DNA of 24,778 bases from a virus: the IMG/VR virus record IMGVR_UViG_3300020176_000089, positions 1-24,778 of that record; one strand, written 5' to 3'. The notes under the pieces are model-generated. The model was not told where the DNA came from, did no database searches, and saw nothing but the letters and a program-made list of their open reading frames with translations. Within the stretch, counting starts at the first letter, position 1, and the number at the start of each line of letters is the position of its first letter. Made by a program: the position numbers and the translations under genes. Below, one piece after another: positions 13,301 to 24,710 of this stretch.

Positions 13301-14146
13301 GTTCTCGGGTCAGTGATCTCCAAAACCAGAGGGCCTTCTACACGCGACGGAAAAGCCGTGGTTGATTTCCGTAAACTTTACGATGTCTTGTACGACACAC
13401 AAAAAACTAAAGACGTCCACGGTTTTGGCAATTTCAAAGAGGGCGGCGTGCCTTTAGCTAAAGTTCTTGAGAACGCTGGAGTTTTGCCCGAGGCAGAGGC
13501 GAAGTCGCTGAAAGAGTTTTTGCAGCGCGGTAAAAACCTACAAGAGGCTCTGAGCGAGGGCGCAGACAACTTCATCGATTACAAAGACACCGATGCCATG
13601 AAAGACTTTGTAGCACGTTTCGGTGGCGCACAAGCGGTGTCAGAAGTCGCGAAGATGCTGGGCCTCAGTCCCACAATCCAAACCACAGGTGCAGGTGCCA
13701 AGCTTGCTCAAAACCAATTTTTGGGTCTTCCCCAAATGGCGTTCAAAGAAGTTTTAATAGACGTTTCCAAACCCGGTGGGGCTTCTGCTTTGGCTAAGGC
13801 GCTACGTGCTGGAGCAACTGAAAACGAACAAATAGCCGGTATAAGCCGCGTTTATGGTTATGTGGCATCTCGATTGTTAGGATCGCCCAGTTACTATTCC
13901 TCCGTTGCCGTACGACCAGTAGAGGAATCTGCACCAGACCCCACTCCCGCAGCCCCCGTGGCACCCCCGATCGCTGGGCCAGCACCTGCTGCTATGACAC
14001 CCCAGACGCCACCAGCAGCGGCACGACCGCCAGCGGCCCCCGATCCGACGATCAGACAACGTTACGCAGCGTTGTATCCAAACGATCCAGTGTCTTCACT
14101 GATCGAGCAACAGGGCATAGCCGGCTTACCACAAGCCCCTAGATAA
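10340..14146 (+). CDS. Giant internal virion/ejection-type protein (last gene of late operon)
   Basis: A 1268-aa protein, the longest in the window and close in size to T7 gp16 (about 1300 aa). A helical N-terminus (1-100) is followed by a Gly/Ala/Val/Leu-rich hydrophobic region at about 111-160, long enough for one or two membrane-inserting helices. Most of 340-1190 is charged and helical. A Pro/Ala-rich linker (about 1197-1236) leads to a short conserved-looking tail with RQRYAALYPNDPVSSLIEQQ (1239-1258), which may be a docking segment. I see no transglycosylase motif of the kind found in T7 gp16. The start overlaps the previous stop (TAATG). The stop overlaps the end of the opposing helicase gene by 8 bp, and a terminator follows. 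Confidence 0.6.
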   Translation: MPIPSTYLPSTVIQQTRAGLDKEEEALDAARQKLQQPLDFDFSGAYEMLREKGFDERTAMDTIAKKLGEKNNFDVQAARKAGFTNEVIVAKLIGRDPDDLVASPGYTLAEGFGRGAVSGLPAGAAGYAAATGLAALGVASAPVLLGGGLLTALVVGATGAGEVLEDVVFDERELLPSERPFGVAGETLGAVASLSPTTQVGLKAIPDAVDFGSKRLMARLQAQREAALKVDPTSAVGTKGTGQIARRQFLEDVVSGVGKRAREAGPTKFAAQELFLSVVPAAAEGFAEAYYPGDDEVRLIAGLVGSIVPTPGVGLVAEAARPAAGVIATDIDEKGFKGSAANLFGLRDRGDRLRRQKAAEFIARAYETSGGKPIEFADELDRLRAADPDFAKSVTPGQLTNNPFFLLQEAITRKNNPILSEQTKRAGEDASRKVSEIIENLKDVETQEALQEAGRLETKLFSTQLQNLIDQAMLKAANAAEKAGAVRQGDLTSVDVSKQQGAILKDAAVQAMNEAKEVRRKLYAAVDKRMVIDTTPILQAYRQLSADFLLTAAGDLKGDLVKDLQNYGLDLGGDVFDNIVTEAGKRKKTLNNRLNTIGATFQRTAQNDPEAFSEFDLLVDTLGGPQKRGYEARLDKVLVGFGKKADEEGALGTELPQRVRANVLKLAQTSKEVESVQRNIKTIEDDLSKISLSDFVQDEAVPQTLGEILAFRNKIRQAKRTAEKGFIEGPTTAQLAVLDNGVNVAIQQRINDGLAAGRDANLEALGTAERYANAYNRVFNQTFAGELGRTKAAGADVIDPETALDRLFLGMDGTQAKRVEDMLTAMRFEGVQDEDLLGSVTGAMDAFLRDKLARIATPSSRVNPITGEREEFLQLTQKQLDSFKNQYKNTILAIDPNGALLDDLSDVSRAQTALEAAFDTASDRAKTRANEANLGSFLEAESAEKVVTNILIGDFPEQRLGQIAKDINRASGNDAYKDSLRRGLFSTVLGSVISKTRGPSTRDGKAVVDFRKLYDVLYDTQKTKDVHGFGNFKEGGVPLAKVLENAGVLPEAEAKSLKEFLQRGKNLQEALSEGADNFIDYKDTDAMKDFVARFGGAQAVSEVAKMLGLSPTIQTTGAGAKLAQNQFLGLPQMAFKEVLIDVSKPGGASALAKALRAGATENEQIAGISRVYGYVASRLLGSPSYYSSVAVRPVEESAPDPTPAAPVAPPIAGPAPAAMTPQTPPAAARPPAAPDPTIRQRYAALYPNDPVSSLIEQQGIAGLPQAPR

Positions 14147-15584
14147 GCCAGCTACGCGCTTCCTCGCCCAGCACTTGTTGGGCGAGGTTTATCTTGCCTT
14201 TCAACGCTTGAATTATCTTTTCGTCTACAGTCTTGGGGCTGACCAGATCCACATACAACACATGATGTTCCTGCCCGATCCGGTGTGCGCGGTCTTCTGA
14301 CTGCAGCCGGATCTCAAGGTCGTACGAATTGTTGTAATACAGCACGTTAGTCGCGGCAGTAAGGGTCAGTCCATAGCCCCCGGTGCGTGGGTTCGCCACA
14401 AAGAAACGCGCCTCACTGTCCGGCTCTTGAAACTTGGCTACAATGTCGGCTCGCTCTTCAGCAGGCGTGGCACCGTAGAAAGTGACCACGGAACTTGGGC
14501 CATACGTGTCTTTGAGTGTTTGCTCTATCGCCTGTATGTCGTAAACGTAAGATGCCCAGATAATTACCTTGCCCATCATCTCGCTGATCACTTCGAGCAT
14601 TTCGTTCATGCGGTTGCTTGGCAGCGCCTGTATCTCACCGTCGTCAGTGCGTAGGTGGCCACAACAGATCTCTTGCAGACGCATGATTTGTGTGAGCACG
14701 CTCTGGGTTGTGGATAACTCCCCTTGGTCCAACATCGCCAGCGCGTATTGACGCATTTGCTCGTAGGCTTGCTTTTGTTCTTTTGTAAGCTCAACAGACC
14801 GCTGGGTGTAAATCTTATCTGGCAGATCAAGGCAGTCCTCTTTCAGCACACGGTGGCTAAAGCGTTCGAGCCGTTCGTTGAGTTCTTCAAGATTCCGATA
14901 CCCAACGATTTGTTGGAAGCTACGTGCGCCAAACTTGCGTTGCTGTAGTTGTGCGTAGCGACCTTGAAAGGCGTAGTAACTGTCAAAGCCTAGCTCTTTC
15001 GAGCCGAGAAACCCGCACTGTGAAAACAAATCCATAGGATTCTTTGTAATGGGTGATCCTGTCAGAATGCGTCGGTACTTGGCTTTCTTGCCCAACCCAA
15101 TAATGTTCTTGGTGCGTTGCGCTGCACGGTTCTTGATCGACGTGCTTTCGTCCACGACCACAAAGCTGTCCGGGTTGTAATCCAAAAATTTACTCGCCAC
15201 GTCTTTGCCCTTCTTTGTAGACAGGGCTTCCGTGTTCATTACAAAGATTCGAAGAATCCCCGAGGCTTTGCGCACGGCCACGTCCCGTAACTCCGCTTTG
15301 AACTTCTGTGTCATGTTCGGCTGCCACAGCACAACCTTACGCTCTATGCGGTCAGGCAGGTGCTGCGGGATTTCTTTGTTTACCCAGTTTGCGTACACGC
15401 CTTTTGGTGCGATGATCAGAGCGGCTTCTACCTGTCCGGCTTCATACAGCGCAGCTAGGGTGTCAATTGCCACCTTTGTTTTACCTGTGCCCATCTCCAT
15501 GAATAGGGCGTAGGCGTTGCGCTCCCACGATTTGTCGAAGGCTATTTTCTGGTGTTCGTAAGGCTCAGTTTTAAATTCGTACAT
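14139..15584 (-). CDS. SNF2-family superfamily 2 helicase/ATPase
   Basis: A 481-aa DNA-dependent ATPase with two RecA-like domains and little else. Visible motifs are MGTGKT (31-36, Walker A), APKGVYANW (59-67, motif Ia), VVVDEST (142-148, Walker B with DEST in place of DEAH), LTGSPIT (174-180, motif III), GGYGLTLTAATNVLYY (402-417, motif V) and HRIGQ (434-438, motif VI with the arginine finger). HRIGQ is characteristic of SNF2 proteins. No chromatin-binding or nuclease domain is attached, as usual for phage members, which may remodel protein-DNA complexes during replication or recombination. The upstream region is A-rich without a strong ribosome site. It is convergent with the late operon and divergent from the replication operon, so it is probably expressed early. 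Confidence 0.9.
   Translation of the reverse strand: MYEFKTEPYEHQKIAFDKSWERNAYALFMEMGTGKTKVAIDTLAALYEAGQVEAALIIAPKGVYANWVNKEIPQHLPDRIERKVVLWQPNMTQKFKAELRDVAVRKASGILRIFVMNTEALSTKKGKDVASKFLDYNPDSFVVVDESTSIKNRAAQRTKNIIGLGKKAKYRRILTGSPITKNPMDLFSQCGFLGSKELGFDSYYAFQGRYAQLQQRKFGARSFQQIVGYRNLEELNERLERFSHRVLKEDCLDLPDKIYTQRSVELTKEQKQAYEQMRQYALAMLDQGELSTTQSVLTQIMRLQEICCGHLRTDDGEIQALPSNRMNEMLEVISEMMGKVIIWASYVYDIQAIEQTLKDTYGPSSVVTFYGATPAEERADIVAKFQEPDSEARFFVANPRTGGYGLTLTAATNVLYYNNSYDLEIRLQSEDRAHRIGQEHHVLYVDLVSPKTVDEKIIQALKGKINLAQQVLGEEARSWLI
14162..14195 (+). terminator. Rightward intrinsic terminator of the late operon
   Basis: A perfect 9-bp GC-rich stem, CCTCGCCCA (14162-14170) with TGGGCGAGG (14179-14187), encloses an 8-base loop and is followed by TTTATCTT on the + strand. 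It starts 16 bases after the stop of the last late gene. The opposite strand has no T-tract after the stem, so it should act only rightward. The whole structure is inside the coding region for the C-terminus of the opposing helicase. Confidence 0.75.
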
Positions 15585-15686: not shown

Positions 15687-16247
15687 ATGGGTCTACTAGA
15701 CGAAATGGAGGGTGACAGCAATAGCTCACTTGAAGTTCCCAACGATTCTGGACTTGGCGCGGTTGCAAAACTAGCGCAAAAAATTATCGCGCAGGAGCAA
15801 CACGTCAAACAACTAGAACTTGAACTAAAAGGTGCGAAAGCAACACTGTTGAAGATGACAGATGAAGATCTGCCGTCTGCAATGCAGGAACTCAACCTTT
15901 CTACGTTCAGTTTGCACGACGGGTCCAAAGTCACCATAAAGCCAACTTACGGCGCACGCATCAGTAAGGACAACGAGGACAAAGCCTTTGAATGGCTACG
16001 TGCTCGTAACGAGGGTGATCTAATCAAGAACACCATCACCTGCCGGTTCAACAAAGAACAGGACAATGAAGCGTCTGCGTTGTTTCACGACCTTGAAGAG
16101 CGTCAGCTTCAGCCAGAACGCAAAGCGGAAATCCACAGCGCAACTCTACGCAGTTGGGCTAAGGGCCGCATTGAAGAAGGCAAAGAGATTGACATGGAGC
16201 TTTTCGGAGTTTGGGTTGGCCAACGTGCAGAAATCAAGAGAGGTTGA
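15687..16247 (+). CDS. Conserved phage protein of unknown function, first gene of replication operon
   Basis: A 186-aa protein. Residues about 20-55 form a charged helix (AKLAQKIIAQEQHVKQLELE) that looks like a coiled coil. The C-terminal two thirds contain DGSKVTIKPTYGARISKDN (about 78-96), AFEWLRARNEGDLIKN (about 101-116) and a final LFGVWVGQRAEIKR. I recall similar proteins directly upstream of the putative ssDNA-binding protein in marine phages, but know of no experimental function. A GAGG ribosome site lies about nine bases before the ATG, and the stop is two bases before the next start. The context suggests a DNA replication or recombination accessory, for example a partner of the next product. 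Confidence 0.75.
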   Translation: MGLLDEMEGDSNSSLEVPNDSGLGAVAKLAQKIIAQEQHVKQLELELKGAKATLLKMTDEDLPSAMQELNLSTFSLHDGSKVTIKPTYGARISKDNEDKAFEWLRARNEGDLIKNTITCRFNKEQDNEASALFHDLEERQLQPERKAEIHSATLRSWAKGRIEEGKEIDMELFGVWVGQRAEIKRG

Positions 16248-16249
16248 TA

Positions 16250-17023
16250 ATGGCTAGTAAAGAAGTCAGTGAAGAGAAGAACAAAGACGTCGCAGTTGTC
16301 GACGCTACCATGTTCGAAGCGGATGCCGGTGTCGGCATGCAGATGGATCAAGACGATTTGGCATTGCCATTTCTCAAGATCCTGTCCGGTAACGACGAGA
16401 TCCTAGAGGTCATCGATGCGAAGCCGGGTGACGTGTACAACACGGTCACGGGCGCGATCTACAAAGGCAAAGAAGGCTGCAAAGTCATTCCTTGCCACTA
16501 CGAGCGCCGGTTCCTGATGTGGGCACCACGGGGCGCAGGCTCTGGGGCACCGCTGCAGAACTACGGTATCGAAGACGACCGCCCGGAAACCAAGCGTGAC
16601 GAAAGCGACAACAAAGACTACGTGGTCGGTGGTGAGGGCGAGTACCTCGAAGAGACGCACCAGCACTATGTGGTGGTGTTGGAAGACGACGGTACGTTCA
16701 GCACGGCGCTGATACCCATGAAGTCCACACAACTCAAGAAGAGTCGTAAGTGGAACTCCATGATCGCGTCACGGACCATGCTCAATGCGAAGGGCGAGGC
16801 GTTTCAGCCGCCGCGTTTTTCACATGTGTACAAGATGTCGACCATCAAAGAAGAGAACTCCAAGGGCTCTTGGCATGGTTGGAACATCGAACTGGACGGT
16901 CAGGTTGAGGACGCGAACGTCTACCGTAGTGCTAAATCGTTCTATGAATCCATTCGTGGTGGAGAAGTAACGGTGAAGCACACTGCTGACGTTCAAGAAC
17001 CAGAAGGGGCTGACCCCTTCTAA
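16250..17023 (+). CDS. Putative single-stranded DNA-binding protein
   Basis: A 257-aa soluble protein placed between a coupled small gene and the primase. The start at 16250 is chosen because the frame opens two bases after the preceding stop with an AGAGAGG ribosome site; the in-frame ATG at 16211 lies inside the previous gene. The core has DLALPFLKILSGN (about 32-44), an IPCHYERRFLMWAPRG segment and STQLKKSRKWNSMIASR, giving basic and aromatic residues suited to binding nucleic acid. It ends EPEGADPF, an acidic tip with a terminal Phe like those of bacterial SSB and T7 gp2.5, which recruit replication partners. No classical OB-fold signature can be confirmed by eye. Similar proteins are often annotated as DNA-binding in marine phages, as I recall. 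Confidence 0.6.
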   Translation: MASKEVSEEKNKDVAVVDATMFEADAGVGMQMDQDDLALPFLKILSGNDEILEVIDAKPGDVYNTVTGAIYKGKEGCKVIPCHYERRFLMWAPRGAGSGAPLQNYGIEDDRPETKRDESDNKDYVVGGEGEYLEETHQHYVVVLEDDGTFSTALIPMKSTQLKKSRKWNSMIASRTMLNAKGEAFQPPRFSHVYKMSTIKEENSKGSWHGWNIELDGQVEDANVYRSAKSFYESIRGGEVTVKHTADVQEPEGADPF

Positions 17024-17102: not shown

Positions 17103-18632
17103 ATGATAGATAAGTTTTCAACGATATTCGATGGATTACGGCTGGCATACGGCACGTTCAAGATCGAAGATCGCAACAGCAAAGGCAAAGCCACCGGTAA
17201 AGCGATGATCGTCCGTGAAGAACGGACTGAAGAGACGTGGCAAGCCCACCTTGATGGCACACAGTCTGTCGGGATCATCCCGATCAACGAAGACAACATG
17301 TGCCGCTGGGGTTGTATCGACATCGACGAATACAACTTCGACCACACCGCATTAATCAACAAGCTGACTAATCTGAAGCTGCCGCTAGTGGTCTGTAGAA
17401 GCAAATCTGGCGGCGCTCACGTCTTTTTGTTTACAACCGACTTCATACCCGCCAAAGACATGCAAGAAGTCTTAACGCGGCTCTCTGTCGGTCTGGGGTA
17501 CGGTGGCAGCGAGATCTTCCCAAAACAGATCGCATTGAACCTAGATAGAGGCGACGTCGGCAACTTTTTGAACATGCCGTACTTCGACCATGAGAACAGC
17601 CTGCGCTACGCGTTCAACCCAGACAGCAGTGCTGCAACCATAGAAGAGTTCTTTGAACTGGTTGCTGAAAACGTCCAGACACGCGAACAAGCGCTGGCCC
17701 TGATCGTCGAGCAGGACAGTAGCCTGCCCATACAGGACGGCCCACCGTGCCTGCAGACACTGTGCAAAGACGGGATTGGTGAGGGCGCACGTAACAACGG
17801 CTTGTTTAACGTCGGAGTGTATCTACGCAAAGCTTTTCCAGATACGTGGGAGTCCGAGATCCTGACGCACAACATGCAGTTCATCCACCCGCCACTACCG
17901 CTGGGTGAAGTCAATGCGGTCGCCAAGCAGCTACACCGAAAAGACTACGCATACAAATGCAAAGACGCCCCGATCAACTCGGTCTGTAACAAAGAACTGT
18001 GCATGACGCGCAAGTTTGGGATTGAGGCCGTGGTGTCGGGCGTGCAGATTGCCAACCTACGCAAGTACAACTCCGTGCCCCCGGTCTGGTTTCTGGACGT
18101 AGAGGGCAAGCCACTGGAGATGGGCACAGACGATCTGTTGAACCAGATGGCGTTTCAGCGGGCATGCGTCGAGCAGCTTAACTTTTACCCACGCACCATG
18201 AAAAAAGACATGTGGGAGACACGCATCAACGCTCTGCTGACTGAGATGCAAGAGACAGACGGGTCTATCATCGAAGTGTCAGAGGACGTCAGCGTCAACG
18301 GTATATTCAACGAGCACTTGGAAGAGTTTTGTACTGGACACCAAGCGGCTGAAGAAAAAGAACAGATCCTGCTCAAGCGCCCTTGGACAGACGAAGAAAA
18401 GAACGAGACATACTTCCGGCTCAAAGATCTGGAAGGCCACCTTCTCAAGGCTAACTTCAAGCATTTTAAGACTCACCAGATCGCACAGCGCCTGCGAGAC
18501 ATCAACGGTGAAGCCACGCAGTTACGCATTCAAAGCAAGGTCGTGCGCCTGTGGAAGATTCCGGCGCATAAGGTTACAAAGACACAGATTCGCGATCCAC
18601 GGTTTACGGCAGATGAAGAGGTTCCGTTTTGA
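17103..18632 (+). CDS. Archaeo-eukaryotic primase superfamily protein (TOTE-like primase)
   Basis: A 509-aa predicted DNA primase or primase-polymerase that would synthesise primers for the downstream family A polymerase. Key features are the metal-binding CIDID (71-75, motif I Asp73/Asp75), RSKSGGAH (99-106, motif II ending in His106), SEIFPKQ (136-142) and GNFLNMPYF (153-161). These are the sequence marks I know from the AEP-TOTE primase family. A C-terminal region has Cys216, Cys221, Cys286, Cys295 and Cys300, of which four probably bind zinc or an iron-sulfur cluster. Residues 310-509 carry no domain I recognise. The family differs from the DnaG/T7 gp4 primases used by most podoviruses. 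The stop overlaps a TTG start. Family call is good; primer-polymerase activity is inferred. Confidence 0.8.
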   Translation: MIDKFSTIFDGLRLAYGTFKIEDRNSKGKATGKAMIVREERTEETWQAHLDGTQSVGIIPINEDNMCRWGCIDIDEYNFDHTALINKLTNLKLPLVVCRSKSGGAHVFLFTTDFIPAKDMQEVLTRLSVGLGYGGSEIFPKQIALNLDRGDVGNFLNMPYFDHENSLRYAFNPDSSAATIEEFFELVAENVQTREQALALIVEQDSSLPIQDGPPCLQTLCKDGIGEGARNNGLFNVGVYLRKAFPDTWESEILTHNMQFIHPPLPLGEVNAVAKQLHRKDYAYKCKDAPINSVCNKELCMTRKFGIEAVVSGVQIANLRKYNSVPPVWFLDVEGKPLEMGTDDLLNQMAFQRACVEQLNFYPRTMKKDMWETRINALLTEMQETDGSIIEVSEDVSVNGIFNEHLEEFCTGHQAAEEKEQILLKRPWTDEEKNETYFRLKDLEGHLLKANFKHFKTHQIAQRLRDINGEATQLRIQSKVVRLWKIPAHKVTKTQIRDPRFTADEEVPF

Positions 18633-18856
18633 AGATCGAGAAAGGGCTAGACATTCCGTCCAAAGCGGGCTGGGGACGCTGGGTCAAGCTGGTGAGAGAC
18701 ATGGAAGTCGGCGATAGCATTGAGGTTGAAGAGGGCAAAGAGCGAAACGCTTTACGCAAAGCGATGGTTGACGCGGGCTACGGTGTCGTACAACGCAAGA
18801 ACCACAAAGATTCTACCGACGACAAGGTCTTGATTAGACTATGGCGGGTTAGCTAA
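18629..18856 (+). CDS. Small conserved phage protein (possible DUF7303-like)
   Basis: A 75-aa protein starting with TTG, whose last two bases begin the TGA stop of the primase gene (TTGA overlap). The start is supported by GAGG at 18618-18621, seven bases upstream. The sequence begins KIEKGLDIPSKAG and has DMEVGDSIEVEEG (about 24-36), then a basic helix with RNALRKAMVDAGYG and a final basic strand (VLIRLWRVS). I recall small phage proteins with this layout (a PSK/R segment then MxVGDS) grouped under DUF7303, and do not know a proven function. The basic second half and its location between primase and helicase suggest nucleic acid binding. Confidence 0.7.
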   Translation: MKIEKGLDIPSKAGWGRWVKLVRDMEVGDSIEVEEGKERNALRKAMVDAGYGVVQRKNHKDSTDDKVLIRLWRVS

Positions 18857-20379
18857 TGCAGCGTATCTTTGGGCCGCCCGGCACCGGTAAGACAACCACA
18901 CTGTTGAATCTAGTCGACAAGGCATTGGCTGATGGTGTACCGCCCACACAGATCGCGTTCTTTGCGTTCACGCGCAAGGCCGCTACCGAAGCAAAAGAGC
19001 GGGCTGCCGCACGTTTCAACCTCGATCCAAAGACTGACTTGCCGTTCTTCCGAACTATCCACAGTCTGGCGTTTCATCTGACCGGACTGAAGTCTGAGCA
19101 GTTGATGACTGCGCAGCACTACCGTGAAGTCGAGCGCAAGATTGGGATCGCACTGGTCAGCGGTGACGTCCCCATGTATGAGGTCGAAGAGGATCTGAGC
19201 AACAGCCTGCGCAAAGAGTCACCGATCTTACGGTTGATCACACTGTCCCGGCTCAAGAAGTCAGAGCTACAGACCGAGTACAATGCCAGTGATCTGGAAT
19301 ACACATGGCTCGAAGTGGACTACGCAGCACGGGCCTTGGCCCAGTACAAGAAAGAGTTTGGGGTCTACGACTACACAGACATGCTCGAGCTCTTTGCACG
19401 GTCTGCCCATGAGACGTGCCCGTCATTCAAGCTATCCATGCTGGACGAAGCGCAGGATCTGAGTCCGCTGCAGTGGGACATTGCCCACGCCATCGATGCA
19501 AAGTCAGAGCGCATGTATTGCGCAGGCGATGACGACCAAGCGATCTACAAGTGGTCTGGGGCAGACGTGGAGCATTTCATCAACCTGCCCGGCGGCAGCG
19601 AGGTGCTAGAGCAAAGCTTCCGTATCCCACGCCTTGTACACGAAGTGGCTGACCGGATCTCACGGCGCATCCGTAACCGGTTCCCGAAGTCGTATCTGCC
19701 CAAGACAGAAGAGGGCCGCATACAAAACATCTCGACCTTTGCAGAATTGGACATGGATCACGGCTCTTGGCTCTTCTTGTCGCAAGCGGCGTACTTTCTA
19801 AACCCGGTGCGCGACCATCTCAAAAGCCAAGGCTATTTCTTTGAGATACAGGGGCGACAAAGCTTACGGCTCAAAGTTCGCGAGGCCCTCGAGGCATGGC
19901 GGACATTGCAGCGCGGCCAGCCGATCACATACGATCTGGCCAAGGTGCTGTACAGTTACATGACAGGCAACGGCGTGCGTGTAGCGCGCGGTTACAAAAA
20001 GATTCTTGGGGAAGAAGACGATACGTTCACGTTCGAGGAGTTGCGGGACACCAACGGTTTGTTGGCAACGCTCGATATGTCGTGGAACGAGGCTCTGGAT
20101 AAAGTACCGGGTGTTGACGTCGCGTACGTTAACGCACTGGTGCGCCGAGGCGAAGACCTCACAGCGCCTCCCCGTATCAAACTATCAACAATCCACGGCG
20201 CAAAGGGCGGTGAAGCAGATAACGTGGTGCTGTTTACGGATTTGACGGTCGCTGCAGAGCGATCTATGGACGCAGATCCAGACAGTATGCATCGCGTGTT
20301 CTACGTTGCGGTTACTCGCACAAAGAAGAACCTGTTCACTGTCCTGCCAGAAAACTTTTATCGGAGTTACCAACTTTGA
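18856..20379 (+). CDS. UvrD/Rep-like superfamily 1 DNA helicase
   Basis: A 507-aa ATP-dependent DNA helicase. SF1A motifs are visible in order: GPPGTGKTT (6-14, Walker A), AFTRKAATEA (37-46, Ia), TIHSLAF (67-73, Ic), LDEAQD (196-201, Walker B), GDDDQAIYKW (224-233, III), EQSFRIP (252-258, IV with Arg256), STIHGAKG (V) and YVAVTR (483-488, VI with Arg488). It is shorter than E. coli UvrD (720 aa), so the 1B/2B insertions are reduced, as in phage Dda-type helicases. No nuclease domain is present. It begins by overlapping the previous stop (TAATG) and overlaps the next gene as TTGA. It probably unwinds the fork or supports recombination-linked replication, since no DnaB-type helicase is present in the window. 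Confidence 0.92.
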   Translation: MQRIFGPPGTGKTTTLLNLVDKALADGVPPTQIAFFAFTRKAATEAKERAAARFNLDPKTDLPFFRTIHSLAFHLTGLKSEQLMTAQHYREVERKIGIALVSGDVPMYEVEEDLSNSLRKESPILRLITLSRLKKSELQTEYNASDLEYTWLEVDYAARALAQYKKEFGVYDYTDMLELFARSAHETCPSFKLSMLDEAQDLSPLQWDIAHAIDAKSERMYCAGDDDQAIYKWSGADVEHFINLPGGSEVLEQSFRIPRLVHEVADRISRRIRNRFPKSYLPKTEEGRIQNISTFAELDMDHGSWLFLSQAAYFLNPVRDHLKSQGYFFEIQGRQSLRLKVREALEAWRTLQRGQPITYDLAKVLYSYMTGNGVRVARGYKKILGEEDDTFTFEELRDTNGLLATLDMSWNEALDKVPGVDVAYVNALVRRGEDLTAPPRIKLSTIHGAKGGEADNVVLFTDLTVAAERSMDADPDSMHRVFYVAVTRTKKNLFTVLPENFYRSYQL

Positions 20380-20684
20380 GTGACGAATACTTTGAAGTAA
20401 TGAACGGCAACAAAAAAGAGAAAGTCTTTTACAAAGACATTCCAAACGGTACGGCAGGCATGTTACCGGATATGGTCAACTCGCCGCCTCACTACGCTGA
20501 CTCCGAGATCGAATGTATCGATGCGATGGTGGCTGCCTTCGGGCGTGACGCCGTCAACACTTACTGCCGCCTTGCTGCGTTCAAATACAACTGGCGTGCA
20601 GGTAAGAAGTTCGATGCAGAAGAGGATCTGAACAAAGCTATCTGGTACTTGCGCTTCGCGAAGGGTGATGACCCAAGGAGCTAA
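20376..20684 (+). CDS. DUF3310-domain protein
   Basis: A 102-aa protein with the DUF3310 pattern: VNSPPHY (34-40), IECIDA (45-50), FKYNWRAGKK (69-78), EDLNKAIWYL (83-92). The TTG start overlaps the helicase stop as TTGA, with GGAG at 20363-20366 nine bases upstream; the next in-frame ATG (20400) has no ribosome site. DUF3310 is widespread in phages and is found in T7 gp1.7, which is reported to have nucleotide kinase activity. Whether this shorter protein has it is unknown. Position immediately before DNA polymerase supports a role in nucleotide supply or replication. Confidence 0.85.
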   Translation: MSDEYFEVMNGNKKEKVFYKDIPNGTAGMLPDMVNSPPHYADSEIECIDAMVAAFGRDAVNTYCRLAAFKYNWRAGKKFDAEEDLNKAIWYLRFAKGDDPRS

Positions 20685-20685
20685 C

Positions 20686-22593
20686 ATGGAAAAAGAAACG
20701 CGCTTGCAGTTTCCGCTGTTCACCCCGAACGCGGAATGGACTGCACCGTTCGAACTGAAAGACCTGACGGGTGCCAAAGAAATCGCTATCGACCTCGAGA
20801 CACGCGATCCACACCTCAAAGAGTACGGCCCCGGATGGCCTCGCAAAGACGGTGACGTCGTCGGCATCGCCGTCGCGACAGACGGTTGGGAAGCCTACTA
20901 TCCGATCGCGCACCTTGGCGGTGGCAACCTCGACAAGAACGTCGTGCTGCGCTGGCTGAAGAAGCAGTTATCCACAGACTGTCCGAAGATCATGCACAAC
21001 GCCCCATACGACTTGGGCTGGCTCAAAGCTTTGGACATCCCGGTCAACGGCCCGATCATCGACACCATGATCATGGCGGCGCTGCTGGACGAAAACCGGT
21101 ACAGCTACAGTCTTAACGCCCTGTCCTACGACTATCTGGGCGAAGCCAAGTCAGAAAAGCTCCTGACCCAAGCGGCAGTCGACTTTGGTGTCGATCCAAA
21201 AGCCGAGCTCTGGAAACTGCCGAGCCAGTTTGTCGGGCCCTATGCCGAGATGGACGCACGGTTAGCCTTTGATTTGTATAAGTTTTTTAAGCTAGAGATT
21301 GCCAAGCAAGACCTCAACACGGTTTGGGATCTCGAAACGCGGCTCACGCCTTGCCTGATCGACATGACCTTTCGGGGTATCCGGGTGGACATGGATCGCT
21401 GCGAGCGGACAAAGCAGGCACTGATCAAGCGCGAGAAAGCCGTGCTCAAAAAGATCGAAGCACAGGCCGGGGGCGAGGTAGAGATCTGGGCGGCGGCGTC
21501 ACTTGCGAAAGCGTTCGACAAACTGAATATCAAATACCCACGTACAGCGACCGGGCAGCCGTCGTTTACCAAGTCGTTCTTGAGTGACAACCCACACGAG
21601 TTTGCAAAGATGGTCGTTGAGGCCCGCAACCTCAACAAGGTGCAGGGCACGTTTGTGTCGTCGATCATGCGGTATGTGTCAAAAGAAGGCCGCATTCACG
21701 GCCACATTAACCAGTTGCGAAGTGATGATGGGGGCACCGTCAGCGGTCGCCTGTCCATGTCCAACCCAAATCTGCAACAGATACCGGCTCGCGATCCAGA
21801 ACTGGGACCTATGATTCGTAGTCTGTTCCTGCCAGAAGAAGATGAGCAGTGGGCTGCAATCGATTTCTCGCAGCAAGAACCACGGATCTTGGTGCATTAC
21901 GCGCAGATCTTTGGCAAATGGAAAAGCAAGCCGCTTGGCGGCGCTCAAGAGTTTGTAGACGGCTACAACAGTGACGCGAGCATGGACTTTCATACAATGG
22001 TCGCTGAGATGGCCCAAATCCCGCGTAAGCAGGCGAAAACGATCAACCTTGGGATGATGTATGGCATGGGTGTAAACAAGCTCGCAGACCAGCTAGACGT
22101 CGATGTTGACACTGCCAAAGAAATTACAAAGCAATACCACAACCGGGTGCCCTTCGTTAAAGAGTTGATGAATGGCGTATCACGGGCCGTGGATCAGAAA
22201 GACGACGGCTCGATCCGAAGTTTAAAAGGCCGCAAGTGCCGCTTCGATATGTTTGAGCCACTTGGCTATGAACTGAAGAAAGCACTGCCCAAGAAAGAAG
22301 CACGCGCCCAGTACGGCGACACAACGCCCCTGCGGCGTGCGTTCACGTACAAAGCACTGAATCGTTTGATACAGGCGTCTGCGGCTGACATGACCAAGCA
22401 AGCGATGGTCGATCTGTACGAAGCCGGCGAGCGTCCGTTATTGCAGGTTCACGATGAACTGGGGTGCAGTGTGCGCGATCTAGAGCACGCTAAGAAGATC
22501 CGAGAGGTAATGGAAGCGGCGATCACGTTACAGGTGCCGAACAAGTGCGACATTGATCTTGGGCCTAGTTGGGGTGAAGCCGTCGAGGTCTAG
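20686..22593 (+). CDS. Family A DNA polymerase with 3'-5' exonuclease
   Basis: A 635-aa replicative polymerase. The start at 20686 is chosen because AAGGAG (20675-20680) sits five bases upstream and the ATG follows the preceding stop; the in-frame ATG at 20665 lies inside the previous gene. The exonuclease domain has DLETR (36-40), HNAPYD (104-109) and YAEMD (186-190), all with acidic ligands intact. The polymerase domain has TVSGRLS (351-357), motif A DFSQQEPR (393-400), motif B with Arg447, Lys451, Leu455 and Tyr459, and motif C QVHDE (587-591). There is no 5'-3' exonuclease domain, as in T7 polymerase. Leu455 matches E. coli Pol I Phe762. It is the last gene of the + strand replication operon. 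Confidence 0.95.
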   Translation: MEKETRLQFPLFTPNAEWTAPFELKDLTGAKEIAIDLETRDPHLKEYGPGWPRKDGDVVGIAVATDGWEAYYPIAHLGGGNLDKNVVLRWLKKQLSTDCPKIMHNAPYDLGWLKALDIPVNGPIIDTMIMAALLDENRYSYSLNALSYDYLGEAKSEKLLTQAAVDFGVDPKAELWKLPSQFVGPYAEMDARLAFDLYKFFKLEIAKQDLNTVWDLETRLTPCLIDMTFRGIRVDMDRCERTKQALIKREKAVLKKIEAQAGGEVEIWAAASLAKAFDKLNIKYPRTATGQPSFTKSFLSDNPHEFAKMVVEARNLNKVQGTFVSSIMRYVSKEGRIHGHINQLRSDDGGTVSGRLSMSNPNLQQIPARDPELGPMIRSLFLPEEDEQWAAIDFSQQEPRILVHYAQIFGKWKSKPLGGAQEFVDGYNSDASMDFHTMVAEMAQIPRKQAKTINLGMMYGMGVNKLADQLDVDVDTAKEITKQYHNRVPFVKELMNGVSRAVDQKDDGSIRSLKGRKCRFDMFEPLGYELKKALPKKEARAQYGDTTPLRRAFTYKALNRLIQASAADMTKQAMVDLYEAGERPLLQVHDELGCSVRDLEHAKKIREVMEAAITLQVPNKCDIDLGPSWGEAVEV

Positions 22594-23484: not shown

Positions 23485-23578
23485 CTTCGACCTCGTATAG
23501 TGGCTGGCCACAATCGTCACACAAAACCTCATCGTCGTCATATGGGTTATCAAAGGTCCAATCCGGTCGTTCAATCAT
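23444..23578 (-). CDS. 44-aa zinc-ribbon protein
   Basis: A 44-aa acidic protein with CDDC (20-23) and CESC (40-43) separated by 16 residues, the pattern of a small zinc ribbon binding one zinc ion through four cysteines. The N-terminus is acidic (DNPYDDDEV). The ATG overlaps the preceding stop as ATGA, which strongly favours this frame over the longer overlapping one. Zinc ribbons of this size are often nucleic acid or protein-binding adaptors; for phage early genes, binding host RNA polymerase would be one option, but nothing in the sequence proves it. Confidence 0.7.
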   Translation of the reverse strand: MIERPDWTFDNPYDDDEVLCDDCGQPLYEVEDEDGKRLHCESCA

Positions 23579-24369
23579 TTCTTTTGGCTCTTCCAATTGC
23601 GCCGCTGCACATTCTGAGTGATGTGTTGACGATGCTTTGCGGTGCCAAACCAGTGCCCGGCTTTGATCAACCGTATGATCACCGTTTCAAACGTGCATTT
23701 CTTGCCCATCTCGCCATTGATTCTCAAACCTAAGTCTCTGACCTCGCGGATGGTTTTGCCGTCTGTGAATGCCGACCACTCTTGCTCGTGGACGTAATGA
23801 GACAACGTCTTCTTTGGGGGCGGCTTTCTTTCCAGATCGACCTGCCCGTTGTTCACGAACCGCATGACGACCGAGTCGCACAGGCTTTCCCACTCGTTTA
23901 TCGTGTATCCCGCAAAGCGGCTCAGATCAAAATGCGTGGGGTCGGTGTCATCTACCGGGTTGTCTTCTAGATACTCAGCGATCTGTTCCTCTACGGACGG
24001 CTCCGGTGCTTTCTTTGGCTGGATTGGAATGACCGTCCGCTTGGACTTTTTTGGCTGTGGCCCCTCTTCGTAGACCTGCACGTCCATTTGGTGCCCGTCT
24101 AAAAAGATCAAACGCTTCACTTTCACGTCAGCGACTTCTGCACCCTCGTGATATTTCCACCGGTGCTGTTGATTGAGTTCTTTTAACTCAGCGTTGAAGA
24201 CCCCGTCATTACCGAGATTACCCATCCAAATGGCTTGGATGATGTGACCGCGCACTTGCCGCTCTTCAAGTTCTATGATCTCCCAAAACCGTTTGATGTC
24301 GTCAGGTTCTTCTGCTTTTCTTTGCAGAAACTCGTAAATCATGCCTTCGCGTAAATCGTGAAACTTCAT
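23575..24369 (-). CDS. Unrecognised protein, 264 aa
   Basis: The largest gene of the leftward cassette, and one I do not recognise. The N-terminal domain (about 1-95) is mixed alpha/beta with a helix starting KFHDLREGMIYEFLQRKAEE. A Lys/Pro-rich linker lies at about 105-125 (PKKSKRTVIPIQPKKAPEP). The C-terminal domain (about 125-264) has acidic then basic helices and ends strongly basic (RRNWKSQKK), consistent with nucleic acid binding. The start at 24369 makes an ATGA overlap with the previous stop, matching the rest of the cassette; an in-frame ATG at 24390 would add seven residues and has a weak ribosome site. No catalytic motif was found. Confidence 0.7.
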   Translation of the reverse strand: MKFHDLREGMIYEFLQRKAEEPDDIKRFWEIIELEERQVRGHIIQAIWMGNLGNDGVFNAELKELNQQHRWKYHEGAEVADVKVKRLIFLDGHQMDVQVYEEGPQPKKSKRTVIPIQPKKAPEPSVEEQIAEYLEDNPVDDTDPTHFDLSRFAGYTINEWESLCDSVVMRFVNNGQVDLERKPPPKKTLSHYVHEQEWSAFTDGKTIREVRDLGLRINGEMGKKCTFETVIIRLIKAGHWFGTAKHRQHITQNVQRRNWKSQKK

Positions 24370-24710
24370 TCTTTTTGATCTCCCGGCCATTCCTGCATCT
24401 CTTCATCGATTATCTCTTTGATGTCGATCAATAACGGTTCAGTAAACCTTTCTGCAGGGACAATTTTAAATCGAGAGCGAATGTGCGTACTGTGGGGTGC
24501 CATTTCTTCATGCATTGCCCACAGTGCGGCAGATTTGGTGACGCCCTTTTGCAACTGCTCTACCTTCACGTCTGTCACGCGAGCTTCTATCAGTGCTTTT
24601 TTGCAAACTTCTTCCATGATCTTTTGAGCTAATTCATCTCTCATGGTTTTTTTGATCTGTTGGAGTTCTTCACGGATCATGCTTCGCAAGGTTTCTTCTG
24701 TGCGTTTCAT
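24366..24710 (-). CDS. Unrecognised protein with N-terminal coiled coil, 114 aa
   Basis: A 114-aa protein. Residues 1-45 form a highly charged helix with hydrophobic spacing (MIREELQQIKKTMRDELAQK), probably an oligomerising coiled coil. The rest is mixed, with a basic segment (STHIRSRFKIVPAERF) followed by an acidic helix (IDIKEIIDEEM). It is linked by ATGA overlaps to both neighbours. No known family is recognised. An oligomeric accessory to the 264-aa protein is a possibility from gene order alone. Confidence 0.65.
   Translation of the reverse strand: MKRTEETLRSMIREELQQIKKTMRDELAQKIMEEVCKKALIEARVTDVKVEQLQKGVTKSAALWAMHEEMAPHSTHIRSRFKIVPAERFTEPLLIDIKEIIDEEMQEWPGDQKE

Follow-up and report, generated by a model that had tools for sequence, protein, structure and literature searches.

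Matching C-terminal tips on an archaeo-eukaryotic-type primase and a gp34-like protein in the replication module of a putative marine podovirus

Results

Overview of the replication module

We analyzed the complete IMG/VR record IMGVR_UViG_3300020176_000089, a stretch of 24,778 bases referred to here as the window. Its right half is filled by a replication block in which an archaeo-eukaryotic primase (AEP) and a gp34-like protein (gp34) carry similar C-terminal tips, and among related phages the two tips change together. The primase ends in DEEVPF and gp34 in GADPF, both resembling DDDIPF, the tip motif of the bacterial single-stranded DNA-binding protein (SSB) (PMC5872125). These shared, co-varying tips, together with the swap of an initiator bearing a superfamily 3 (SF3) helicase for an AEP plus a UvrD-type helicase, are what is new in this module. 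By analogy with T7, we lean toward a tail-docked replisome organized around the AEP primase, in which unwinding would be carried out by UvrD, by a strand-displacing family A polymerase (PolA), or by both, with no ring helicase. As the best explanation of the window as a whole, held with slightly more belief than doubt, we propose that a marine podovirus of the HTVC023P/DSL-LC04 type here encodes a self-contained module for its replication. The block begins with SNF2 on the minus strand and continues on the plus strand with gp33-like and gp34-like proteins, the primase, a 75-residue open reading frame (ORF), UvrD, a DUF3310 protein, and PolA. The main features are as follows.

14139..15584, minus strand: SNF2-family translocase (PF00176, E 2.5e-26; DEST and QSEDRAHRIGQ motifs)
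16250..17023, plus strand: gp34-like protein of the Pam3_Gp34 family with tip GADPF (PF23977, E 1.1e-58)
17103..18632, plus strand: AEP primase, 509 residues (Pfam AEP-TOTE, PF22548, E 5.6e-15; PHROG 21866, E 1e-101)
17103..17705, plus strand: AEP catalytic domain of the primase, residues 1-201 (structure match to 7nqf, a CRISPR-associated Prim-Pol [CAPP])
17742..18020, plus strand: PriCT-like region of the primase, residues 214-306 (C216, C286, C295, and C300; weak PriCT_1 match below the cut-off)
18294..18572, plus strand: probable winged-helix domain of the primase, residues 398-490 (VIA-align Z of about 7 to winged-helix chains, below the caution line of Z 8)
18612..18629, plus strand: SSB-like C-terminal tip of the primase, DEEVPF (conserved end against a variable upstream stretch)
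18856..20379, plus strand: UvrD-type superfamily 1 (SF1) helicase, 507 residues (PF00580, E 2e-30; PF13361, E 9.5e-10; GPPGTGKT and MLDEA motifs)
20665..22593, plus strand: PolA with 3'-5' exonuclease (PF00476, E 5.2e-65; PF01612, E 2.7e-12)

The partners of the primase are constant at loci with room among 150 related viral contigs: gp34 is found at 109/109, gp33 at 98/98, UvrD at 123/123, PolA at 77/77, and SNF2, always on the opposite strand, at 71/71, and DUF3310 at only 52/111. Because these counts come from relatives, many of them close, they demonstrate a fixed block, not independent events.

The tips of the primase and gp34 are conserved and co-vary

Tip conservation was assessed in a set of 55 representatives that share less than 85% identity. 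In 49 of them the primase has a final F, and in 44 a preceding P; gp34 has the same residues in 50 and 45, respectively; in both proteins, the 20 residues that precede the tip are variable. An aromatic end with at least two acids in the tail is present in 29/55 primases and 38/55 gp34 proteins, compared with a background of 70/1178 ORFs, and no such tail occurs in UvrD (0/51), PolA (0/34), SNF2 (0/33), or gp33 (0/46). In the window, an acidic P-aromatic end is confined to the primase and gp34 among 83 ORFs of at least 80 residues.

Departures from the PF ending tend to be paired between the two proteins. In the HTVC027P clade, both end in IV at 66/66 loci. Other pairs are PFV/PFA (ct3Et533), EF/EF or EF/EM (several Z-genome phages), DL/EL (two of the three contigs L384-L386), PY/PY (L413 and L424), and VL/VM (L407). 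When partners were shuffled over the last two residues, a procedure that does not model descent or the tree, the association gave p values of 0.0001-0.0002 in 48 representatives, 0.003-0.004 within clades, and 0.002-0.005 in 17 representatives under 50% identity. The last residue alone was significant in the 48 (p 0.01) and not in the 17. Duplicates (L001 and L387) and loci with frame-broken gp34 ends (L004, L159, L334, and L350) had been dropped before the main shuffles. Among the 15 protein pairs of the module, the primase-gp34 pair showed the largest value (z 4.5, p 0.0002; 48 representatives, last two residues), followed by primase-PolA (z 2.2, p 0.02) and gp34-PolA (z 1.8, p 0.04), with the remainder between -1.8 and 1.5. 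The co-variation was found again (p 0.0008) in an independent set of 16 representatives from bacterial genome contigs, from which L411 and L414 (near-copies) and L417 (probably broken) had been removed.

HTVC023P and HTVC027P both infect HTCC1062, and their gp34 tails differ (SVPF versus DIV); the partner of the tips is thus more likely to be encoded by the phage than by the host. We found no publication on a primase/SSB tail shared outside T7 in the literature within reach, most subscription literature lying beyond it.

The primase has a CAPP-like fold

The primase scores 56 bits against Pfam AEP-TOTE (curated cut-off, 27), and its PHROG family is annotated as primase, which bears out the AEP-type enzyme that the initial annotation had seen in the 509-residue protein. 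Residues 1-201 of the AlphaFold model (predicted local distance difference test score, 80) superimpose on CAPP Prim-Pol 7nqf with Z 19.3 and a root mean square deviation of 2.9 over 184 residues (VIA-align); the value for S-2L PrimPol is Z 10.3, and 7nqf was also recovered when PDB sequences were searched with a profile (E 2.7e-14). In an alignment of 17 diverse primases, the relatives being 25-64% identical to that of the window, D73, D75, S102, H106, and E137 are invariant; they correspond to the DxD motif, the SxGxH-type motif, and a third acidic residue, and E137 is the predicted third catalytic residue. C216, C286, C295, and C300 are likewise invariant in 17/17 and may possibly form a metal or Fe-S site of the PriL type; for PriCT domains in general, a relationship to the Fe-S_N domain of PriL has been proposed (PMC5862659). 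The VIA-align rows for the model cover residues 1-201 and 399-487, on either side of the PriCT-like region. Residues 398-490 are modeled as a probable winged helix, a domain also described in the plasmid primase PolpTN2 (PMC5862659). Judged by sequence and model, the 509-residue protein is an AEP primase, CAPP-like in its fold and presumably active in priming.

CAPP enzymes are DNA primases/polymerases that start with a ribonucleotide, and they contain a PriCT region with conserved cysteines (PMC8211822). The window primase resembles them in its AEP fold and in this cysteine-bearing PriCT region, but it has no TPR, reverse transcriptase, or Cas partner in the window, it sits in a phage replication setting, and it carries the SSB-like tip; its score against the NCBIfam CAPP model NF040561 is 27.5 bits, below the cut-off of 200. 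Among named phage records, only 25 have this AEP, and 24 of these have a UvrD homologue, the exception (MW202803) being a partial primase match.

A primase tree of 43 rows has long branches, and stand-alone AEPs and long AEP fusions are interleaved in it; beyond showing that the two forms are mixed, it gives no order between them. The long proteins, of 729-911 residues, occur in Mesorhizobium, Rhodospirillales, and Woeseiaceae contigs (L428:9977-12235, L425:10010-12310, L433:730-2916, L430, and L431) and combine AEP and/or PriCT with SF3 (DUF5906) or, weakly, DUF927. AEP-TOTE is fused to SF3 in the bacterial genome contigs L425 and L428, and PriCT to SF3 in L433; a plausible reading is that the split form descends from the AEP-TOTE/SF3 fusion or is a cousin of it. 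At their C termini, the long AEPs of L428, L430, and L431 have DEDIPF or DEDLPF (DEDIPF in L428). In a further Mesorhizobium contig (L437:9953-12055), AEP-TOTE is joined to the RecA-like AAA_25 domain and ends in QEDLF.

UvrD and SNF2 are the helicases found with the primase

The UvrD protein has Walker A and B motifs and both the N and C domains of UvrD, and it scores 80.6 bits against the NCBIfam PcrA equivalog, well below the cut-off of 911. Both this helicase and the family A polymerase stand as the initial annotation had them within 17103-22593. The polymerase had also been called T7-like, and here the family assignment holds but the type does not: its motif RKQAKTINLG has Leu where the T7 type has Tyr. 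We take this Leu to be at position 762. The SNF2 protein, counted as part of the same interval, is real but lies before it and on the minus strand.

A DnaB_C domain was absent from all 21 related records searched, of which 11 are complete named phages and 10 are contigs, and Toprim_2, which covers DnaG and gp4 primases, was absent from all 17; T7 was positive in both searches (6.8e-20 for DnaB_C). Of the two genes that would have contradicted the initial annotation, a DnaB/gp4-type helicase and a DnaG primase, neither appeared in these records. The SF3-type families PF19263 and PF05272 were absent from the same number of related records (0/17), compared with 5/5 sister phages, each family being above its cut-off in three of the five. 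A search with the DnaG zinc ribbon found no other primase, its control being weak, since T7 likewise gave no score. Of 18 records, one of them T7, none had a DnaC-like loader above the cut-off; R5C and Pan1 gave sub-threshold matches. In Pfam scans of the larger proteins of two phages, UvrD and SNF2 were the only helicases, among the best 25 of 29 families in DSL-LC04 (28 proteins) and the best 25 of 36 in SH-Ab 15497 (26 proteins). UvrD is therefore the best candidate for a fork motor, because the other helicases are eliminated and it is linked to the primase; strand displacement by PolA is a serious alternative.

The polymerase and helicase part of the module is known. Leu762 group II PolA genes adjoin SNF2 (45%) and UvrD (68%), with UvrD always accompanied by SNF2, and PolA/UvrD/SNF2 was the second most abundant combination in that virome, with 16.4% of PolA-contig reads (PMC6302109, 2018). 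The window has the features of this module, namely a family A polymerase with Leu762 and UvrD-like and SNF2-like neighbors, and its PolA/UvrD/SNF2 gene list, being already published, is not new; the AEP primase, the gp33/gp34 pair, and the common tips, on the other hand, are not described in the accessible part of that report. The HTVC023P-type pelagiphages (PMC9599517; MN698239 and MN698241) and DSL-LC04 (OR003939) have the same gene order and an opposite-strand SNF2, the SNF2 proteins being 44-55% identical. Primase, helicase, and PolA served as markers in the HTVC023P-type paper, whose accessible text does not comment on the AEP nature of the primase (PMC9599517). In these phages the protein is annotated just as primase, the HTVC023P-clade primases have no tip, and HTVC027P has IV instead of PF.

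Sister phages carry matching tips on a different initiator

In the sister phages examined, the initiator consists of a RepB-type AEP and an SF3 helicase, carried on a single protein or split over two. Eight of them have a final F, with matching neighboring residues, on both gp34 and the SF3-bearing protein (permutation p 0.0015); the pairs include PVF/PPF, EEF/EDF, DNF/DSF, and KGF/GGF. In JSF39 and Gekk3-15, the SF3-bearing protein was chosen by gene position and length or by annotation, without a domain search. In PB1, Carpasina, and JSF39, the RepB-type primase stands alone and has no tip; the Dda-like helicases have none either. Yuavirus M6 and Pam3 share the SNF2, gp33, and gp34 neighborhood of the window, and these two, PB1 (Pbunavirus), and Carpasina have matching F-ended tips on gp34 and the SF3-bearing protein; in Vojvodinavirus CN2, gp34 lies outside the stretch read. 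Unlike the window, M6, Pam3, CN2, PB1, and Carpasina combine a RepB-type AEP with a DUF5906 or VapE-like SF3 helicase, and their SF1 helicase is Dda-like, not UvrD-like.

In T7 (NC_001604), gp2.5 ends in EDGDF and gp4 in NDTDF. The gp4 tails bind the polymerase (PMC12593628, PMC8472574), and the gp2.5 tail is implicated in binding the polymerase and the primase-helicase (PMC5686142). The window thus resembles T7 in having acidic, Phe-ended tails on its primase-bearing protein and putative single-stranded DNA (ssDNA)-binding protein, and a family A polymerase. However, T7 uses a DnaG-type primase and a ring helicase, whereas the window has an AEP primase and an SF1 helicase, and docking of its tails is a prediction; the ring helicase joined to a primase that marks the T7-type replisome was not found in the relatives searched for DnaB_C.

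gp34 is a candidate ssDNA-binding protein

The gp34 model (predicted local distance difference test score, 87), made like the other gp34 queries from 16256-17020 and thus two N-terminal residues short, gave as its top VIA-align matches a phage RDF protein (9teh, Z 7.6), RB69 gp32 (6.4), BRCA2-DSS1 (5.9), and T4 gp32 (5.4), with many SSBs following at Z 4-5. A sequence search of the PDB gave no credible match. The model suggests that gp34 probably has an oligonucleotide/oligosaccharide-binding (OB) fold and is a candidate ssDNA-binding protein; no paper on Pam3 gp34 as an SSB was found among the matches listed. Homologues of gp34 occur in 505 named phage records and those of SNF2 in 549, mostly from Pseudomonas phages.

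The source record and the neighboring genes

The gene order of the window is also found in the complete relatives DSL-LC04, 023Pt_psg01, HTVC023P, and HTVC027P, whose genomes are 57-62 kb; the window is therefore probably about 40% of its phage genome, which most likely measured 55-61 kb. As the window is part of a larger genome, the absence of a gene from it alone says little. The remaining genes of the block are listed below.

15687..16247, plus strand: gp33-like protein, DUF7307 (PF23984, E 3.4e-26), upstream of the primase
18629..18856, plus strand: 75-residue ORF between the primase and UvrD, without family match
20376..20684, plus strand: DUF3310 protein (PF11753, E 1.6e-13)

Among the 26 loci listed, the window and L017 alone gave a BLAST match for the 75-residue ORF; at this position, DSL-LC04 and ct3Et533 carry small genes whose names are doubtful. 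Downstream of PolA are two minus-strand ORFs, one at 23575-24390 (271 residues; unmatched in PHROG, with a Pfam match below threshold) and one at 24366-24710. Close relatives of the module also occur in contigs (L398, L399, L400, and others) that had been assigned to genome bins of Pirellulaceae, Maricaulis, and Flavobacteriaceae and are probably mis-binned phage contigs.

Discussion

In the replisome that we favor, the AEP primase would lay primers, which by analogy with CAPP may start with a ribonucleotide and be extended with deoxynucleotides; PolA would then extend the primers, and gp34 would coat the single strands. Without a ring helicase, the fork would be opened by UvrD and/or by strand displacement by PolA, and SNF2 would clear proteins from duplex DNA. 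The tips of the primase and gp34 would dock into one common phage-encoded pocket, and through this shared docking, primer and coating protein could be handed over at the fork, as is thought for the tails of T7 gp4 and gp2.5. The pocket might belong to the polymerase or be the gp34 cleft; since the tip pattern accompanies a family A polymerase in M6, Pam3, and the window and an annotated PolIII alpha in Gekk3-15, it may be on gp34, SNF2, or gp33 and not on the polymerase. A wider version of this proposal, which is attractive but doubtful, holds that the T7 solution, one docking code for a primase and an ssDNA-binding protein, was reached three or more times from priming engines that are unrelated: DnaG-type with a ring helicase (T7), RepB-AEP with SF3 (Yuavirus, Pam3, Pbunavirus, and kin), and CAPP-like AEP with UvrD. 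The final letters of the tails would then make up a legible lock-and-key code, co-evolving with a pocket that the phage encodes; this could be the OB cleft of gp34, because the code is kept with family A and PolIII-type polymerases alike. In the window, the fork would be opened by a monomeric or dimeric SF1 helicase with no ring helicase.

Several observations weigh against the tail-docked replisome. The HTVC023P-clade primases (63 loci) end in TGKFRT or QENN-like sequences, and Nanhaivirus primases in GEA, with gp34 keeping VPF-like and PF ends, respectively. The weak co-variation of the primase and PolA tails indicates that some phylogenetic signal remains. The OB fold of gp34 is called from Z values below 8 throughout, and Foldseek alone returned nothing under E 0.001, so the fold is only probable and ssDNA binding is a prediction. 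In four Z-genome siphophages, a second small protein next to PolA ends in DDDIPF or DDDLPF, and the annotations of SH-Ab 15497 and K21lambda1 call it ssDNA-binding; with such a separate SSB-like protein, gp34 is not the sole coat protein there. No published biochemistry on these phage proteins was found in the literature examined. Two details concern the same loci. The tipless HTVC023P-clade primases (L082 and L246-L325) mostly share a conserved TGKFRT extension, as in HTVC023P itself (DDDFHTGKFRT), and the small Z-genome proteins lie at L088:30226-30586, L091:2550-2904, L092:31330-31723, and L087:31349-31673.

The tips could also be explained by the host or by descent. Many of them are near-copies of the host SSB tip DDDIPF, and no phage replicative helicase was found in the related records, as would be expected if they mimicked this tip, recruited host PriA and, through it, host DnaB, and so made such a helicase unnecessary. 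We consider this unlikely and do not adopt it as the leading explanation, because phages of the same strain, HTVC023P and HTVC027P, differ in their gp34 tips and because the tips move off DDDIPF jointly: DIV, VM, PY, and EPEL leave the host motif in both proteins. Phages of Acinetobacter, Klebsiella, Salmonella, and Providencia further have EF on the primase and EF, EM, or DM on gp34, with DDDIPF or DDDLPF on a separate protein, and the DnaC-type loader stayed below the cut-off in all 18 records. Shared ancestry of linked genes, in which each protein just keeps an acidic tail of a general kind and the two have no partner in common, would fit shuffles that ignore the tree, the primase-PolA signal, and the two exceptional clades. 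It nevertheless seems rather improbable to us, as the 14 other, equally linked pairs reach z values of only -1.8 to 2.2 against 4.5, shuffles within clades are significant, and the pattern is repeated in the independent set and in sister phages with a different primase-helicase.

Other alternatives concern the roles of the enzymes. A strand-displacing PolA might do the unwinding, leaving SNF2 and UvrD as accessories in repair, recombination, or protein clearance; SNF2 neighbors have been linked to strand-displacing PolA (Keown 2022, PMC9069017), UvrD and PcrA are poorly processive (PMC6302109), and the window polymerase is of the Leu762 kind. This is conceivable, though we would not expect it, given that UvrD lies downstream of the primase at every locus with room and tracks it in the named records, and that ring and SF3 helicases were not found in related records. 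A counter-defence enzyme of a TOTE or CRISPR-associated conflict system, with no part in replication, is a very improbable identity for the AEP, even though its closest solved relative and profile is a CRISPR-associated Prim-Pol: the CAPP score is far below its cut-off, the primase always accompanies PolA and a helicase at loci with room, and no other primase was found. The initial annotation had suggested a possible link to TOTE systems, which are defined by TPR, TBP, and effector partners (acronym as expanded in PMC12458937). None of these partners, and no Cas partner, occurs among the nine window proteins scanned, the window covering part of the genome, and PADLOC gave only domain-level matches; the conflict role is rejected, and the TOTE link comes down to the name of a Pfam domain. 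The sister phages, with an AEP/SF3 primase-helicase in the same slot, are the more telling comparison.

The module belongs to a type that is among the most abundant replication arrangements in one studied marine virome (PMC6302109), and priming and unwinding in PolA/UvrD/SNF2 phages are not worked out in the literature that we found. The shared tips offer a direct and cheap test of replisome partnerships, and matching C termini could serve as a general sequence marker for the partner of the phage ssDNA-binding protein in unannotated genomes. If the tail-docked replisome is correct, a replisome without a ring helicase would become testable, and tail docking would be a convergent design rule of phage replisomes, not a quirk of T7.

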